DNA of 64,000 nt, from positions 1 through 64,000 of the IMG/VR virus record IMGVR_UViG_3300044681_000281, one strand, 5' to 3'. Under the pieces are notes generated by a model, which saw only the letters and a program-made list of their open reading frames with translations, had not been told where the DNA came from and made no database searches. The stretch comes from a virus. Positions 33,903-40,243 of the stretch are shown in pieces. The first letter of the stretch is position 1. Each line of letters starts with the position of its first letter. Made by a program: the position numbers and the translations under genes.

Positions 33903-35693
33903 TTACAATGTAAATGATGTATTGAGTAAATCTCTTTTACCCAAGTTTAACCCTTCGGACCACGTTTCAGGACTCTTCATCATCGCCTTTTCAACCGCCC
34001 CTAAAACAGAACTATTCGCAGTTAAATTCACATTTACATTACCACTTACATTTTGATTGGTTGTTTGTGTGTTGCTCGTGTTATCATTCTTTTTATTTGC
34101 ATCTGTAAGGGTTTTAATCTGTTCTCTCACCTGACTACCCATATCTTTTGCATAGGCGGCCACTTTTTCTGTCATTTCATCCGCCGATTTACTTAATGAT
34201 TGACCAATACTCTTACTATCCTCCCCAATCGCAGCTTGAACCGCCGCATCGGTAGCCTTACCTGCCTCTAATCTTGCTAGTGTAACAAGATATTGTAAAT
34301 CCCTTTGGATGTTTTCTGTGAGAGTTACCTGTTTTCTAACTAAATCACTCTCTGACATTTCTTTAAAATCGTCTTGGTATTTGAGTAGGGTTTCTGCCGT
34401 GGCGGAATCAATATTCTCAAGTGCGATTGCTGTTGCACCTCCGAACTTCTCTTGTAATTCAGGTGTCATTAATTCGATGGACATCTTACCATCTTTCATT
34501 CTAGCGATGTTGGTTAAAAATTCTTCCTGTTTTTCTGACAAACCAAGACCCTCCATTGCGGTTGCTGCTGCCATTCTTTCTTGAGACGCGACCGCCGCGT
34601 TGGTTAATTCTTTAAGGTCAATACCCATTTGTTTTGCCAACTCCCTTGCCTGTCTAAGATTCGCACCCGTCACTTCAAAACCACCCGTTTCAACGTTGTA
34701 AGTTGCTAAATTTTGTGCCACACCCTCAATTGCTCCTTGGAGTCCTTCAACCTCGTTGGTTGCCATATACATGAGTCGTAATGGGTCGTTAAATTCACCG
34801 AACGCACCACCCAATACTTGTAGGTTAGCCGATAATTCTAATGCCCCTTCAGGATCAAAAACTTTGTCCGCAACTGAGAAAACACTATTAAGACTCATCC
34901 TAACCTCAGTTGCCCTTCTAACCATTTTTTCAAGACCTTCTACCCCATTTTGGAAACCATAGGCATTTAGTTTATCAATGTTTTCGGTGATACCCTTAAT
35001 GGTTGTTTTTGATTGGAGACCGACTTCTAATGATCTTTTACCGGCATCAGCGATCGCCTCTTGTGCTTGTGACGCACCTATACCAACTTTTTCAAATTCC
35101 GCGTATGACCCAACAACTTCTGACATGTCCATTCCGTACGCCTGTGCAATTTCACCCGCACGTACCAACATATCAGATCCAACCAACGCAAATCTACCTG
35201 TGGTGTCAACTAATTTTTTTGCGGAATCAGTTAGTTCATCGAAACTAATACCTAACTTTAAAAGTGCGGGCTGTGCTTCACTAATCTGTTCTCTAAAATC
35301 TTCGGATAGTTCACCTGTTAATCCTAAATCTTCATTGATCGCCTTTAAGAGAAAGGATTGTTCTTTGTAATATGATTCTAAACTATTTTCTGCTATTTGC
35401 CCAACAGTTTTTAATAATGCCATGATTGGACTCGTGTCCTCTTTAGCCCTCTCTGTTCGATAGGTGGCCATGGCATCCTCTAAACTCAACTGTTCTCTCG
35501 GAGCATACTCTTGTCTCGTAGACGCGGCAACTATTTTAGCGATTATACCCGCCTCTGTAGATGGGGGTTTAGGCGCATTCTTATTACTTTCATTCTTCGC
35601 TTGACGCAACTCGTCTTCGTACTTTCTACGCTCCTCAGGACTCGTGGCATTATCGATTTTTTCCTGTAATAACTTTATATAGTTTTCGTTCAT
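33903..35693 (-). CDS. Tail length tape measure protein
   Basis: The 596-aa protein is almost entirely helical. It starts with a charged helical segment (residues 1-35, KLLQEKIDNATSPEERRKYE) and continues with long Ala/Glu/Leu-rich helices. It includes MDMSEVVGSYAEFEKVGIGA and LGLSEKQEEFLTNIARM, a pattern common in tape measure proteins, and ends in an Asn/Thr-rich, NVNLTANSS-type tail. Position is decisive: immediately downstream of the frameshifted chaperone gene and in the tail operon between tube and hub genes. At about 1.5 angstrom per residue of helix it would specify a tube of roughly 90 nm, comparable with T4. Confidence 0.82.
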   Translation of the reverse strand: MNENYIKLLQEKIDNATSPEERRKYEDELRQAKNESNKNAPKPPSTEAGIIAKIVAASTRQEYAPREQLSLEDAMATYRTERAKEDTSPIMALLKTVGQIAENSLESYYKEQSFLLKAINEDLGLTGELSEDFREQISEAQPALLKLGISFDELTDSAKKLVDTTGRFALVGSDMLVRAGEIAQAYGMDMSEVVGSYAEFEKVGIGASQAQEAIADAGKRSLEVGLQSKTTIKGITENIDKLNAYGFQNGVEGLEKMVRRATEVRMSLNSVFSVADKVFDPEGALELSANLQVLGGAFGEFNDPLRLMYMATNEVEGLQGAIEGVAQNLATYNVETGGFEVTGANLRQARELAKQMGIDLKELTNAAVASQERMAAATAMEGLGLSEKQEEFLTNIARMKDGKMSIELMTPELQEKFGGATAIALENIDSATAETLLKYQDDFKEMSESDLVRKQVTLTENIQRDLQYLVTLARLEAGKATDAAVQAAIGEDSKSIGQSLSKSADEMTEKVAAYAKDMGSQVREQIKTLTDANKKNDNTSNTQTTNQNVSGNVNVNLTANSSVLGAVEKAMMKSPETWSEGLNLGKRDLLNTSFTL

Positions 35694-35705: not shown

Positions 35706-35861
35706 TTATTTCGAGGGGTTTTCTAACTCAATAATTTTCTCGATATAATATCTTCTTAAATAGATGGGCATCTCCAACACATCCCTGTGGGAGAACCCTC
35801 TTTTTACGAGGTAAATCGTTTCTAAGTATTGTGAGGTCTTAGACTCCGTAGAAAGGCCGAA
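35706..35861 (-). CDS. Tail assembly chaperone extension reached by +1 frameshift
   Basis: After the T-run at 35865-35860 (GAG TTT TTT CGG in the upstream frame) a second frame, +1 relative to it, stays open for 51 codons to TAA at 35708-35706. It has no ATG, only a remote TTG, and no obvious ribosome-binding site. The product looks like a real protein: helical, charged, with RGFSHRDVLEMPIYLRRYYI, a pattern of small tail chaperones. Slippage of Phe-tRNA from UUU to UUC at UUU UUU C would fuse it to the first 238 residues of the 245-aa protein, giving about 289 aa. The place, just ahead of the tape measure gene, is where tailed phages use such shifts. Confidence 0.7.
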   Translation of the reverse strand, partial: FGLSTESKTSQYLETIYLVKRGFSHRDVLEMPIYLRRYYIEKIIELENPSK

Positions 35862-36576
35862 AAAACTCCACCCCAAAGTCGATATTGAATGTGACTTTTT
35901 CTCCTGATGGGGCGATTGTGGTTTGTGTCAGATCGACACCGGGTTTAACTTTATTGACATATTTTCTGAAATTTTGAGAGTCTACAATTGGTAAAGTCTC
36001 TATAAAATTTCTAATGTTCATTGGATCGGGATTACCTTCCACTGATTTAATTAATTTCTCTAATCTTTTTGTAACGATTGGTGCGGTTCCTATACCATTC
36101 CAACTTTTATTGATTTGGTCGATTTCAATTTCATCTTTCTGTGTTAAAAAGTTGAATGTGATATGTTTCTTAGACTTCTCCATAAAATACGGATAGTTAC
36201 CATTCTCATCTTCTTTTAAATCAAATTCTTTATATGACAATTCTGACAAATCAACCGTATAATCAAAAAATTCATCTGTTTTTGGGTCCACGATCCTCAT
36301 GTTAAGGTCAGAACCAAACGCAGTGTTTCTTAAGAAAATAAGGATTGCTTGTCTATCCTCCAATGTTAAGTCCTCAACGGCTATCTCTTTTGTTAGAATT
36401 TTCCTTTTAAGGAGTTCATCAATTACATTACCACTCGCAACTAAGTTGGGTGAAGTTAGAATATTCTCATCTGATGCCGTTAAGTATGCAACTTTAACCG
36501 CCTTAGTTTTATTTGGGTAAAGAATACCCCTACTTGGTAGTTCTACTACATCATATTGTATTGTTGGATCTATCAT
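35839..36576 (-). CDS. Tail assembly chaperone / baseplate hub chaperone, gp26-like
   Basis: The 245-aa protein opens with VVELPSRGILYPNKTKAVKV, then YLTASDENILTSPNLVASGN, typical of the T4-type gp26/gp51-related hub chaperones, which are small assembly factors. The position between the tail tube gene and the tape measure gene is that of lambda G in other phages. In-frame termination occurs at 35839. An overlapping +1 frame (35706-35861) provides a longer alternative C-terminus. I am sure it is coding and fairly sure of the chaperone role; the exact T4 counterpart is uncertain. Confidence 0.78.
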   Translation of the reverse strand: MIDPTIQYDVVELPSRGILYPNKTKAVKVAYLTASDENILTSPNLVASGNVIDELLKRKILTKEIAVEDLTLEDRQAILIFLRNTAFGSDLNMRIVDPKTDEFFDYTVDLSELSYKEFDLKEDENGNYPYFMEKSKKHITFNFLTQKDEIEIDQINKSWNGIGTAPIVTKRLEKLIKSVEGNPDPMNIRNFIETLPIVDSQNFRKYVNKVKPGVDLTQTTIAPSGEKVTFNIDFGVEFFRPFYGV

Positions 36577-36686: not shown

Positions 36687-37175
36687 TTAGTAAACTTGGA
36701 TACATCTATCCATTCTCAATGAACAGTCAATAGTTGCCAAGGCATCGTTGTTGTAATCTAATTCGTTGAAGTTCAAATCAGTGATAAATGTTCCTTGTAG
36801 GATCCATTTTTCAACTACAACACCTGTTGGGTCTAACATCTCTAATTCGATATCTTTTTTATATCCCGCGGCGTAACCCATTCTACCTGTTACGGATTCT
36901 GCGTGTAATCTGAACCACTCCATCAACGCTTGTGATGCAGAAGGTCCAATTGGATCTTTGAATTTAACTCTTAGTTCATTCCATGTGAATCTACCAGCAA
37001 CATAAGTTGAAGTGTTCAAGAAAGGAATTTCAACACTGTTAATCTTCGCGCTAGGTCTAGCGGCCGATGTAACATACCACTCATTGATTCCCAATGAAGA
37101 AGGGAATCTAACAATGAATCGGTTAACTCTTTTCGGTTCGTAAGGAACCGGCATTTTCATTAATAAATCTGCCAT
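36687..37175 (-). CDS. gp19: Tail tube protein gp19-like
   Basis: The 162-aa size matches T4 gp19 (163 aa). It starts MADLLMKMPVPYEPKRVNRF with IVRFPSSLGI, and has the internal SVEIPFLNTSTYVAG and FTWNELRVKFKDPIGPSASQ, typical of the stacked-hexamer inner tube; the C-terminal beta strand ends RMDRCIQVY. In T4-type phages it forms the tube through which DNA passes. The order tube, then sheath upstream, is the conserved 18-19 arrangement. A TATTTATA motif lies 33 bases ahead of the start and a strong terminator follows the stop. Confidence 0.95.
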   Translation of the reverse strand: MADLLMKMPVPYEPKRVNRFIVRFPSSLGINEWYVTSAARPSAKINSVEIPFLNTSTYVAGRFTWNELRVKFKDPIGPSASQALMEWFRLHAESVTGRMGYAAGYKKDIELEMLDPTGVVVEKWILQGTFITDLNFNELDYNNDALATIDCSLRMDRCIQVY

Positions 37176-37432: not shown

Positions 37433-40243
37433 TTAGATATTCTCAAATGATGCTCCTGTTGGAGTAATTAAGAATTCAACATCAATGAATTCCAATGCTC
37501 TTGTTGGTTTGATGTAAATCTTACCTCTTAAAGTATTTGCATCGATATCCTCTGGATCATTAGATACCGTTACACGGAACTCATATAAACCTCTTTCTTT
37601 CTTGATTGATTCCAAAATAGGATTAACCAATCTTAAGAATTCATTTCTTACTTGCTCGTCATTTTGTTCAAATAACAATCTCACGGCAACTGCCGAAATA
37701 AGTTTTCTTGCTCTTAACAACAATCTTCTTACGTTAATTCTATCAAGTGCGGATTCTCTAACCTGTAAGGTCTTGTTACCCCAAATGATTGTACCCGTAT
37801 CAGAGAATGTTGCGATTGGGTTAATTCTTGCTTTGTATAAATCATCTCTGTTATCCAAAGTAAGTTTTTTCTTCGCTTTAATTGCGTTTACTAAACCTCT
37901 TTGGTATCCTGCTACTGCGAACCAAGGATATGATACATTATCGGTCAACGCAATATTCTTAACAACCTCACCTGTTGGTGGAATGTATAATTGAGTTGCG
38001 TTATCCCCATCTCTTACTTGGATCCATGGCCAATATGTTGCGGTATAGTTGGTGTCCAAATCTACAGTATCCAATTGGTCAATGATTTCATCAACATTGT
38101 CAGTGTTAGGTGCGTTTACAATATAAAGTGAATCCGCTCTATCACCCTCAATCATATCGATTGTTTGATTTACCAAAGAACTGTGATTGTAGAAATCAAG
38201 ACCTGGAGTTGCGAAAATGTTAATATCAACCGACTCAGGATTAGAGAATGTCTCAATTGCCTGTAAGAACGCGTAGTAGTCAGAATTTCCAACTGAAGTA
38301 CTGAATACCCCACCATTAGTGGTTGTACCACTCACATATGTATTCTTACCGAAGATATAACCATCTCCATTCGTTCTGGTTCCTCTATAAATGTCCCATC
38401 CGTCAAAACCACCACATACTGCGAATGTGAATTTTCTGAATGATTTACTATCTAATTTTCCTTTATCATTTCCTTCCAAATCATAAGGTGTTGTTTTAAA
38501 CCCTAATGAAGATGCATTTGATGATAAGTGGAATCCGTGTGATGCAACATTTGCACTCACCCCTTTAAATTGGAATAAGTCAGAATCGAAACCAATTTGA
38601 GATGAAAGACCTAAAGAAACCTTTCTAACTTTATCTCCATTGGTTAATTCAGGATTTCCTAATGAGTCAAAGGCAATAGTATCACCCGCATCAAAATATT
38701 GGGTTTTATATAGAACATTACCAATTTTAGAACCGACACCTAAACTATCGGCAGTAAAACCTTTGAATCCCGCAGGAAATGCATCGATTGGGTGTTCTTC
38801 AGCCATGTTCAACATAACATATTTAGAACGTAACTCATATTCACCGTCTGAAGTACCGATTTTTCTTGCGATATAACCAGGTAGGTCAGGGTTCATAGAA
38901 CATCTGGAAAATTTCTCTAAAACAACAACATTATCGTCTGAATCATTAAAGTCTCTAACGATCACATCAAATTCACCCGTTTCAATGTCAATGTTTTGAA
39001 TCATTAACTTAACCTGTGTGTTTGCGGCATTACCATCAGAGATACTAATAACACTAAATAAGTCTGAAACTGCACCACCTCTCACTTCAGATACAACCGT
39101 TGGAGATGCTGGGGTTTCCCACTGACTTAAGAAGTCGTTTGAAACATTATGATATACAAGATCAGTACTTAAACCTCTAACTAAACCTAAAGAATATAAA
39201 GATTTTAATAAGTTAGGGTACTCCTCAAATACGTAGACAGGGAAATCGGATCTTTTCTTATCGAAAACATCCCCACCCAATACCTTGGTGATGTACTTTG
39301 TGGATGTCATATCCATTGTACATGTAAATGATTTAACACCACTAGTTGATCCATTTGCACTTATTACAAATTCACCCATTGGGTTAGAAGCGATAGTAGA
39401 AGAAGAAAGGGTTAAATCACCATTATTAGTTATTTCTAAATCTAAGGTCTCACCACTATACGCACCTCTAGATCTTAGGGCCGCGATAACAATACCATCG
39501 TAATCCTCATTCACTTCGGCAACGTACTCAAATTGAGTGATTGTCCAACCTGTGGAGGTTCCGTCGTAAACGAACAGATATGAATAGACACCGTCGATTA
39601 CACCCAACCCATTTTCTTTAAAGTAGAAATTGTACCAATTATTCTCCACATTGGAACCAATAGGACCTGTTTCTTCTAAAGAATCATTTAAAGGTGCTGT
39701 AGTGTTAGGGTCAACGTAACCAATTGTAAACCACGTTCCATCTTGTACCGTGATTGAATTGATATAGTCAGGAACTGAATTACCGTCAGTTGCGGTTTTA
39801 TTATTTAAATCACCAATGAATGATGATGTTGAGATGTTAGTAGTCGCACCGGTTAACGTTTCAGTGATACCTGTAACCAAATTAGTGGTATCTACAGTGA
39901 TACCCCCCAAAGTCTTTATTGCGAAAGTCTTTAAAGGCTTGTATCCTGTTAAACCTAAAACTCTCGTCACAAAAAGTTGATTTGATTCTTGTAAGTATGA
40001 TTTTGCCACGTAACCTAACTCATACTTAGGATTACCATCCGAGTATTTCGCAGGTGAAGTAGGACCAAAATATGTTTTGAACTCATCAAAATTTCTTATT
40101 AAAATAGGTTCGAATGCGGGACCTTGAATAGTCTCACCCGCCAAACCTAGTGTAGTTACACCCACACTTTGCGCTACGAACGTTAAATCCTTCTCTGATG
40201 TGTAGACACCTGGAGAAACGAATACTCTGTTTGAATTTGCCAT
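37433..40243 (-). CDS. gp18: Tail sheath protein gp18-like (936 aa)
   Basis: The N-terminus MANSNRVFVSPGVYTSEKDL and the following VGVTTLGLAGETIQGPAFEP are the classic opening of contractile sheath proteins. The C-terminal domain (about 700-936: QIDLDTNYTATYWP-like, then RLVNPILESIKKERGLYEFR and DIDANTLRGKIYIKPTRALE) is the conserved interlocking core. It is about 275 residues longer than T4 gp18 (659 aa); the extra is in the middle (about residues 120-620), which in sheath proteins projects outward. It drives contraction during infection. A TATTTATA motif lies 35 bases ahead of the start. Confidence 0.96.
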   Translation of the reverse strand: MANSNRVFVSPGVYTSEKDLTFVAQSVGVTTLGLAGETIQGPAFEPILIRNFDEFKTYFGPTSPAKYSDGNPKYELGYVAKSYLQESNQLFVTRVLGLTGYKPLKTFAIKTLGGITVDTTNLVTGITETLTGATTNISTSSFIGDLNNKTATDGNSVPDYINSITVQDGTWFTIGYVDPNTTAPLNDSLEETGPIGSNVENNWYNFYFKENGLGVIDGVYSYLFVYDGTSTGWTITQFEYVAEVNEDYDGIVIAALRSRGAYSGETLDLEITNNGDLTLSSSTIASNPMGEFVISANGSTSGVKSFTCTMDMTSTKYITKVLGGDVFDKKRSDFPVYVFEEYPNLLKSLYSLGLVRGLSTDLVYHNVSNDFLSQWETPASPTVVSEVRGGAVSDLFSVISISDGNAANTQVKLMIQNIDIETGEFDVIVRDFNDSDDNVVVLEKFSRCSMNPDLPGYIARKIGTSDGEYELRSKYVMLNMAEEHPIDAFPAGFKGFTADSLGVGSKIGNVLYKTQYFDAGDTIAFDSLGNPELTNGDKVRKVSLGLSSQIGFDSDLFQFKGVSANVASHGFHLSSNASSLGFKTTPYDLEGNDKGKLDSKSFRKFTFAVCGGFDGWDIYRGTRTNGDGYIFGKNTYVSGTTTNGGVFSTSVGNSDYYAFLQAIETFSNPESVDINIFATPGLDFYNHSSLVNQTIDMIEGDRADSLYIVNAPNTDNVDEIIDQLDTVDLDTNYTATYWPWIQVRDGDNATQLYIPPTGEVVKNIALTDNVSYPWFAVAGYQRGLVNAIKAKKKLTLDNRDDLYKARINPIATFSDTGTIIWGNKTLQVRESALDRINVRRLLLRARKLISAVAVRLLFEQNDEQVRNEFLRLVNPILESIKKERGLYEFRVTVSNDPEDIDANTLRGKIYIKPTRALEFIDVEFLITPTGASFENI

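Follow-up and report, generated by a model that had tools for sequence, protein, structure and literature searches.

The tail assembly chaperone gene of this virus very likely undergoes programmed +1 frameshifting on UUU_CGN, by which two chaperones would be made from one start codon, a short form of 245 aa and a long form of 289 aa. Most ribosomes would stop at the TAA codon and release the short form, TAC-N. On a minority, the rarity of the following codon, CGG, would cause a halt while Phe-tRNA occupies the second UUU (35862-35860). The slow CGN codon in the A-site would supply the pause, and the conserved C after UUU would let Phe-tRNA re-pair on UUC. The long form would add a 50-aa helical T-domain to the short form. 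By analogy with gpG and gpGT of lambda, the short form may coat the tape measure protein, and a few long copies may recruit tail-tube subunits. That the site is conserved, that the extension is under selection as a protein, that both parts have homologs and that the gene order is shared can be read directly from the sequences; the occurrence of the shift, its efficiency, the tRNA that slips and the role of each product are what we infer. We favour a +1 over a -2 shift, slippage on the second Phe codon, and a part for the rare CGN codon in the signal, again judging from the sequences.

The 64,000-nucleotide stretch that was analyzed, termed here the window, comes from a virus record of 75,130 bases. 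The features discussed below are the following.

37433 to 40243, minus strand: tail sheath protein, from family matches
36687 to 37175, minus strand: tail tube protein of the gp19 type (phrog_4542, E 2.4e-24)
35839 to 36576, minus strand: 0-frame gene for the short chaperone form (TAC-N, or 'G'), 245 aa; matches to PF12322 (T4_baseplate) and phrog_150; structure model with pLDDT 89 and pTM 0.82
35872 to 35874, minus strand: GGG (Gly235), possible cis element, kept as GGG without an amino-acid reason
35860 to 35865, minus strand: slippery run TTT TTT, codons 238-239, conserved in homologs
35862 to 35860, minus strand: second TTT, the putative P-site codon
35857 to 35859, minus strand: A-site codon CGG (Arg240), always CGN in the homologs from the codon-neutral scan
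35842 to 35858, minus strand: stretch read in two frames (0: CGG CCT TTC TAC GGA GTC; +1: GGC CTT TCT ACG GAG), strongly constrained
35706 to 35858, minus strand: +1-frame extension (T-domain), 50 codons plus stop; open frame, three predicted helices, pLDDT 90.7
33903 to 35693, minus strand: probable tape measure protein, 596 aa; weak match to PF10145 and synteny with annotated tape measure genes

The chaperone gene and its slippery site

The 0-frame gene ends in GGG GTG GAG TTT TTT CGG CCT TTC TAC GGA GTC TAA, with the stop codon at 35841-35839 (minus strand). This confirms the sequence given in the original prediction, in which a 245-aa gene ending in GAG TTT TTT CGG ... TAA precedes the tape measure gene. 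In a profile search, the 245-aa protein matches PF12322 with 28.8 bits, against a curated cut-off of 24.5 (E 1.3e-6); it also matches phrog_150 (E 1.3e-10). T4 gp26 and T4 gp51 both match PF12322, and the 245-aa protein is a tail chaperone of the T4 gp26 type. The genes in the window are arranged in the order sheath, gp19-type tube, 245-aa gene, extension and then the probable tape measure gene, whose ATG lies 12 nt past the stop codon of the extension. The order of sheath, tube, chaperone and tape measure genes is repeated in annotated relatives. A tail-chaperone homolog is thus found in the expected place, between the major tail protein and tape measure genes, as in G/GT-type pairs.

The short form and the extension were modelled apart, the short form from 56 homologs. 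When the short-form model is compared with solved structures, it matches the HK97 tail assembly chaperone (2ob9, Z 5.3), YqbN (3klu, Z 5.1) and a phage-satellite protein (5ir0, Z 4.0), and the next match is at 2.1. These three are the only clear matches, and the best of them is to the known chaperone type, but the scores are modest (Z about 5 at the top), and values below 8 do not decide the fold. Among predicted viral structures, gp26-type hub chaperones are widely matched by the model. A search for plasmid-borne relatives found none.

Because searching with the slippery site itself would bias the codon counts, viral contigs were scanned for DNA encoding the peptide GV(E/D)FFRPF(Y/F)G with every synonymous codon allowed, and a long upstream ORF was required. 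The second Phe is TTT and the Arg is CGN in 115/115 homologs, which share ancestry, so that the counts are not independent events. The first Phe is TTT in 113 of the 115, and the other two read TTC TTT CGN. All 115 carry the extension, which a contig end cuts short in four. The same is seen in 34 non-redundant close homologs: codons 238-239 are TTT TTT in every one, and Arg240 is always CGN. Elsewhere in the chaperone gene, TTT makes up 77% of the Phe codons, and AGR makes up 86% of the other Arg codons. CCT TTC TAC GGA, which follows the slippery site, is nearly frozen in the 34 homologs, which fits a stretch that codes in two frames. Protein similarity added 80 homologs with 41-76% identity, and nearly all of these have TTT TTT CGN or TTT TTT TGG at the site. 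Under the window's own codon usage, Phe-Phe-Arg would be spelled TTT TTT CGN 7% of the time. From these comparisons, the site is conserved beyond chance and is under selection.

Codon use in the window points to the same site. TTT_CGN occurs once in 35 window genes, at the shift site, where 3.8 occurrences are expected. CGG is used 6 times in the 18,175 codons of these genes. UUU_C is also avoided in the window genes: a codon starting with C follows TTT in 28/520 cases and follows TTC in 63/325.

The -1 (+2) frame closes 17 nt past the 0-frame stop in the window, so soon that the product of a canonical -1 site (X_XXY_YYZ) is excluded there. The frame of the extension could also be reached by a -2 shift, in which Phe-tRNA would move from the second UUU two bases backwards, again onto UUU, so that the junction reads EFFFG instead of EFFG. 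Re-pairing of this kind is perfect on TTT TTT, and -2 shifting is known in phage Mu and arteriviruses (PMC5009743). However, four relatives with TTC TTT CGN (L121, L171, L175 and Streptococcus phage GXN1) keep the extension, and in these a -2 shift would re-pair on UCU with a mismatch in the middle. LR756508, which has TTT CTA at the site and also keeps the extension, fits a +1 shift only. Nor would a -2 shift account for the conservation of the C in CGN. We consider it very unlikely, so that of the '+1 (or -2)' originally proposed, the first is favoured and the second disfavoured by the TTC TTT CGN variants. These variants, and LR756508, also make it unlikely that the first Phe codon is where the slip takes place.

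The extension in the +1 frame

Past the T-run, the +1 frame stays open for 50 codons plus a stop, with no ATG near the junction, as had been noted originally. The first codon is GGC (35858-35856), the last is AAA (35711-35709), and the stop is TAA (35708-35706), all on the minus strand; the frame is open across the junction, and the read-through product is 289 aa long. The +1 frame is also open in nearly all homologs found by tblastn, down to about 40% identity and including several distant phages. Alignment of relatives, suggested as a check on the original prediction, shows both the T-run and the extension conserved over a very wide range. No member of the clade shows the pattern named in advance as a refutation, an extension that persists although the slippery run is absent. 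What comes closest is TTC TTT CGN and the TTT CTT TGG of a distant phage, Flavobacterium phage immuto; the exact motif is not universal.

Two measures show that the +1 frame is the only one in which the extension evolves as a protein. In a set of 69 non-redundant sequences, median omega is 0.21 in the +1 frame and 1.06 and 1.48 in the other two, values to be taken as a signature and not as a rate, since many pairs are saturated. Between close pairs, the differences fall on +1 codon positions 1/2/3 in the proportion 233/117/606. The AlphaFold2 model of the extension consists of three helices (pLDDT 90.7). For the extension alone, comparison with solved structures gave nothing above noise. A profile of the extension aligns with the T4 gp51 C-termini, KVP40.0327 and cyanophage Bellamy gp11 (hhalign Prob 92, E 5.8e-7). 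On a smaller scale, this comparison scores 26.5 against a shuffle maximum of 17.1, beating 100/100 column shuffles. DUF6760 (PF20546) is matched by 20/65 members of the extension family, with a best E of 6.3e-5; the extension in the window reaches 13.8 bits, below the curated cut-off of 27 bits, which makes it a remote relative of DUF6760 and not a filed member. On profile evidence, the extension is a T-domain and shares ancestry with the piece by which long forms in other systems exceed the short ones. The frameshifted, longer tail chaperone that was predicted is therefore supported by the joint conservation of T-run and extension and by the identity of the extension as a real domain.

Within the +1 extension, the public records of immuto (L001 3827-3937), SP-15 (L007 3740-3859) and Mel-JY01 (L002 3728-3964) list ORFs that are truncated or begin at an alternative start. 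In Bacillus phage SP-15 the site reads TTT TTT CAC. A homolog from a Bacteroidaceae MAG (L183, 2983-3699) counts against the reading, as it has no T-domain, and the tape measure gene overlaps its stop.

The T-domain could instead be a separate small protein, for which ribosomes start internally or re-initiate once they have passed the TAA. In cyanophages and KVP40 the equivalent ORF has an ATG and is annotated as a gene, and the window has an in-frame TTG (35876) upstream of the run; the other possible +1-frame starts, GTG, TTG and ATG, lie late in the extension. Against a separate start, no start codon in the extension frame is conserved across homologs, and 12 dereplicated lineages have no +1-frame ATG, GTG or TTG up to residue 26 (the search pattern behind this count required TTT and C, and its counts were not used for the invariance of TTT and C). 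In some relatives, such as L056, a +1-frame TAG stands directly before AGT TTT TTC, and the FFxLSTxY residues, which overlap the 0-frame, are conserved upstream of any start. A separate start also leaves the conservation of TTT TTT CGN unexplained, and we regard it as highly improbable. An ATG-started gene in relatives had been named in advance as the finding that would speak against the shift; no close relative has one. In the distant KVP40 and cyanophages a separate ATG gene is indeed annotated, but even these have a canonical slippery heptamer from which the -1 frame runs across the Phe-Phe junction with no stop. Transcriptional slippage on the run of six T, giving mRNAs with one base fewer or two more, is of a known kind but extremely unlikely here, as six T is a short run for it, the TTC TTT variants keep the extension with a run of only three, and it makes no difference to a polymerase whether Arg is written with a rare codon (CGN).

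The junction in other branches and the conserved GGG

The same Phe-Phe junction is found in other branches of the family. In 79 distinct cyanophage-type sequences, T_TTT_TTC is found there, and the -1 frame is open into a gp51-like ORF with no stop. KVP40 gp26 has the same U_UUU_UUC heptamer at the junction, and the KVP40 record notes its short gene as similar to the gp51 C-terminus. The T_TTT_TTC ends of gp26 in cyanophage-type sequences and KVP40 are located at L099 6650-6720, in L306-L385 and at L100 5800-5840; two of the cyanophage-type sequences, L361 and L374, have no ATG between the heptamer and the gp51-like ORF. Stenotrophomonas phage RAS14, with T_TTT_TTT (L006 3730-3820), and the uncultured phage LR756511, with T_TTT_TTC (L005 3676-3750), look like -1 versions; in RAS14 the T-domain is annotated as a separate TTG-started gene. 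In T4, PF12322 is represented by two separate genes, the short gp26 and the long gp51.

In two Bacteroidota loci (L304 871-1626 and L305 871-1626), PF12322 and DUF6760 form one in-frame protein of 251 aa, joined at ...QSFF, the same junction that the +1 shift would create (...VEFF). Tube-like and sheath-like neighbour genes make these loci look like contractile injection systems. The in-frame fusions suggest that DUF6760 is a chaperone T-domain. A further locus of this type may hold another frameshift: at L303 640-840, DUF6760 lies in the -1 frame relative to the PF12322 gene that it overlaps, at TCG GGG GAA, and has no obvious start codon. No DUF6760 was found in the control genomes or in the two MAGs first tried.

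Upstream of the slippery run, Gly235 is GGG in 34/34 non-redundant close homologs, compared with 11% of Gly codons elsewhere, and in 113/131 dereplicated homologs, compared with 11-13% elsewhere. The codon is kept also in homologs with a +1-frame stop between it and the run, so coding in the +1 frame does not explain it. A Shine-Dalgarno stimulator of the prfB type was considered and seems unlikely: GGG lies 8 nt from the P-site codon, too far away, in a genome mostly without Shine-Dalgarno sequences at gene starts. The prfB stimulator is spaced about 3 nt from the P-site codon. A downstream RNA structure was rejected; for 16 homologs, RNAalifold predicted nothing beyond a hairpin of 7 pairs that spans the slippery site, and no compensatory changes support it.

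Most of the 35 window gene starts tested (genes of at least 148 aa) have AT-rich leaders with no Shine-Dalgarno-like sequence. It is true, as stated originally, that the extension has no close ribosome-binding site, but in such a genome its absence is uninformative. The leaders, together with Flavobacterium phage immuto as the nearest isolate, suggest a Bacteroidota host.

A bolder reading, which we hold to be less likely than not, is that GGG N6 UUU UUU CGN is a clade-wide +1 signal undescribed in phages. Its origin would lie at the conserved Phe-Phe junction, which in other branches of the chaperone family would serve for -1 shifting, for fusion in frame or for duplication of the gene. The conserved GGG would then stimulate the shift in a novel way, on ribosomes that start genes without the help of Shine-Dalgarno sequences.

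Comparison with known systems

Chaperone genes of T4-like phages have been treated before. Vladimirov, Gautam and Davidson (2022, Virology 566:9) identified the tail chaperone genes, and the title of their paper suggests a mechanism other than frameshifting; a 2025 paper (PMC12846349) refers to it as the source for -1 sites on T-runs in T4-like phages. As far as this citation goes, the original statement that no clear case is known in T4-like phages does not hold, and the relation of the T4-like chaperones and the -1 cases are already published and not new. In the literature searched, in which Vladimirov et al. 2022 is represented by its title and citation, we found no report of a +1 UUU_CGN site in the T4 gp26-type chaperone family, and this version appears to be unreported.

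If the reading is correct, a large group of uncultured, mostly aquatic myoviruses, together with some isolates in whose records the extension is wrongly annotated or omitted, make a tail protein that is missing from annotation, the extension being missed by gene finders. One essential pair of short and long chaperones would be made in four ways (+1 shift, -1 shift, in-frame fusion and gene duplication) at the same protein junction, and homologous genes could then be used to study what decides the direction of a frameshift.

The locus resembles the gpG/gpGT system of lambda (also found in HK97, P2 and Mu) in its placement between tube and tape measure genes, its short and predicted C-terminally extended forms, and the conserved slippery site at the 3' end that opens a conserved extension in another frame. 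It differs in the shift, which is -1 in lambda, P2 and most others and -2 in Mu (PMC5009743), whereas in the window it would be +1 on UUU_CGN, in a T4 gp26-type protein. G-T frameshifting is described as conserved in long-tailed phages except T4 (PMC5009743). T4 gp26 and gp51 belong to the same PF12322 family, and the C-terminal piece of gp51 resembles the window extension; T4, however, uses two genes, cyanophage-type sequences carry U_UUU_UUC, a putative -1 site, and the window clade would use +1. In the injection systems with PF12322 and DUF6760, the G and T parts are likewise joined at Phe-Phe, but in one continuous reading frame. The haloarchaeal myovirus HSTV-2 also has a contractile tail and a tail chaperone for which a +1 shift is considered likely (PMC5009743), a likeness drawn from a prediction in the literature.

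The skip site itself, shared by more than a hundred relatives, is closer to that of influenza virus than to the known phage sites at chaperone genes. UUU_CGN is the demonstrated type of +1 site in PA-X of influenza A (UCC_UUU_CGU), where comparative data favour CGN in the A-site (PMC3498833). Both have UUU_C in the P-site followed by a slow, rarely used CGN codon in the A-site. They differ in the E-site, which is UCC in PA-X and UUU, rarely UUC, here. If the shift occurs as proposed, bacterial ribosomes also use this flu-type +1 site. Ribosome, gene and purpose are unrelated in the two cases, and the likeness is therefore one of mechanism and not of descent.
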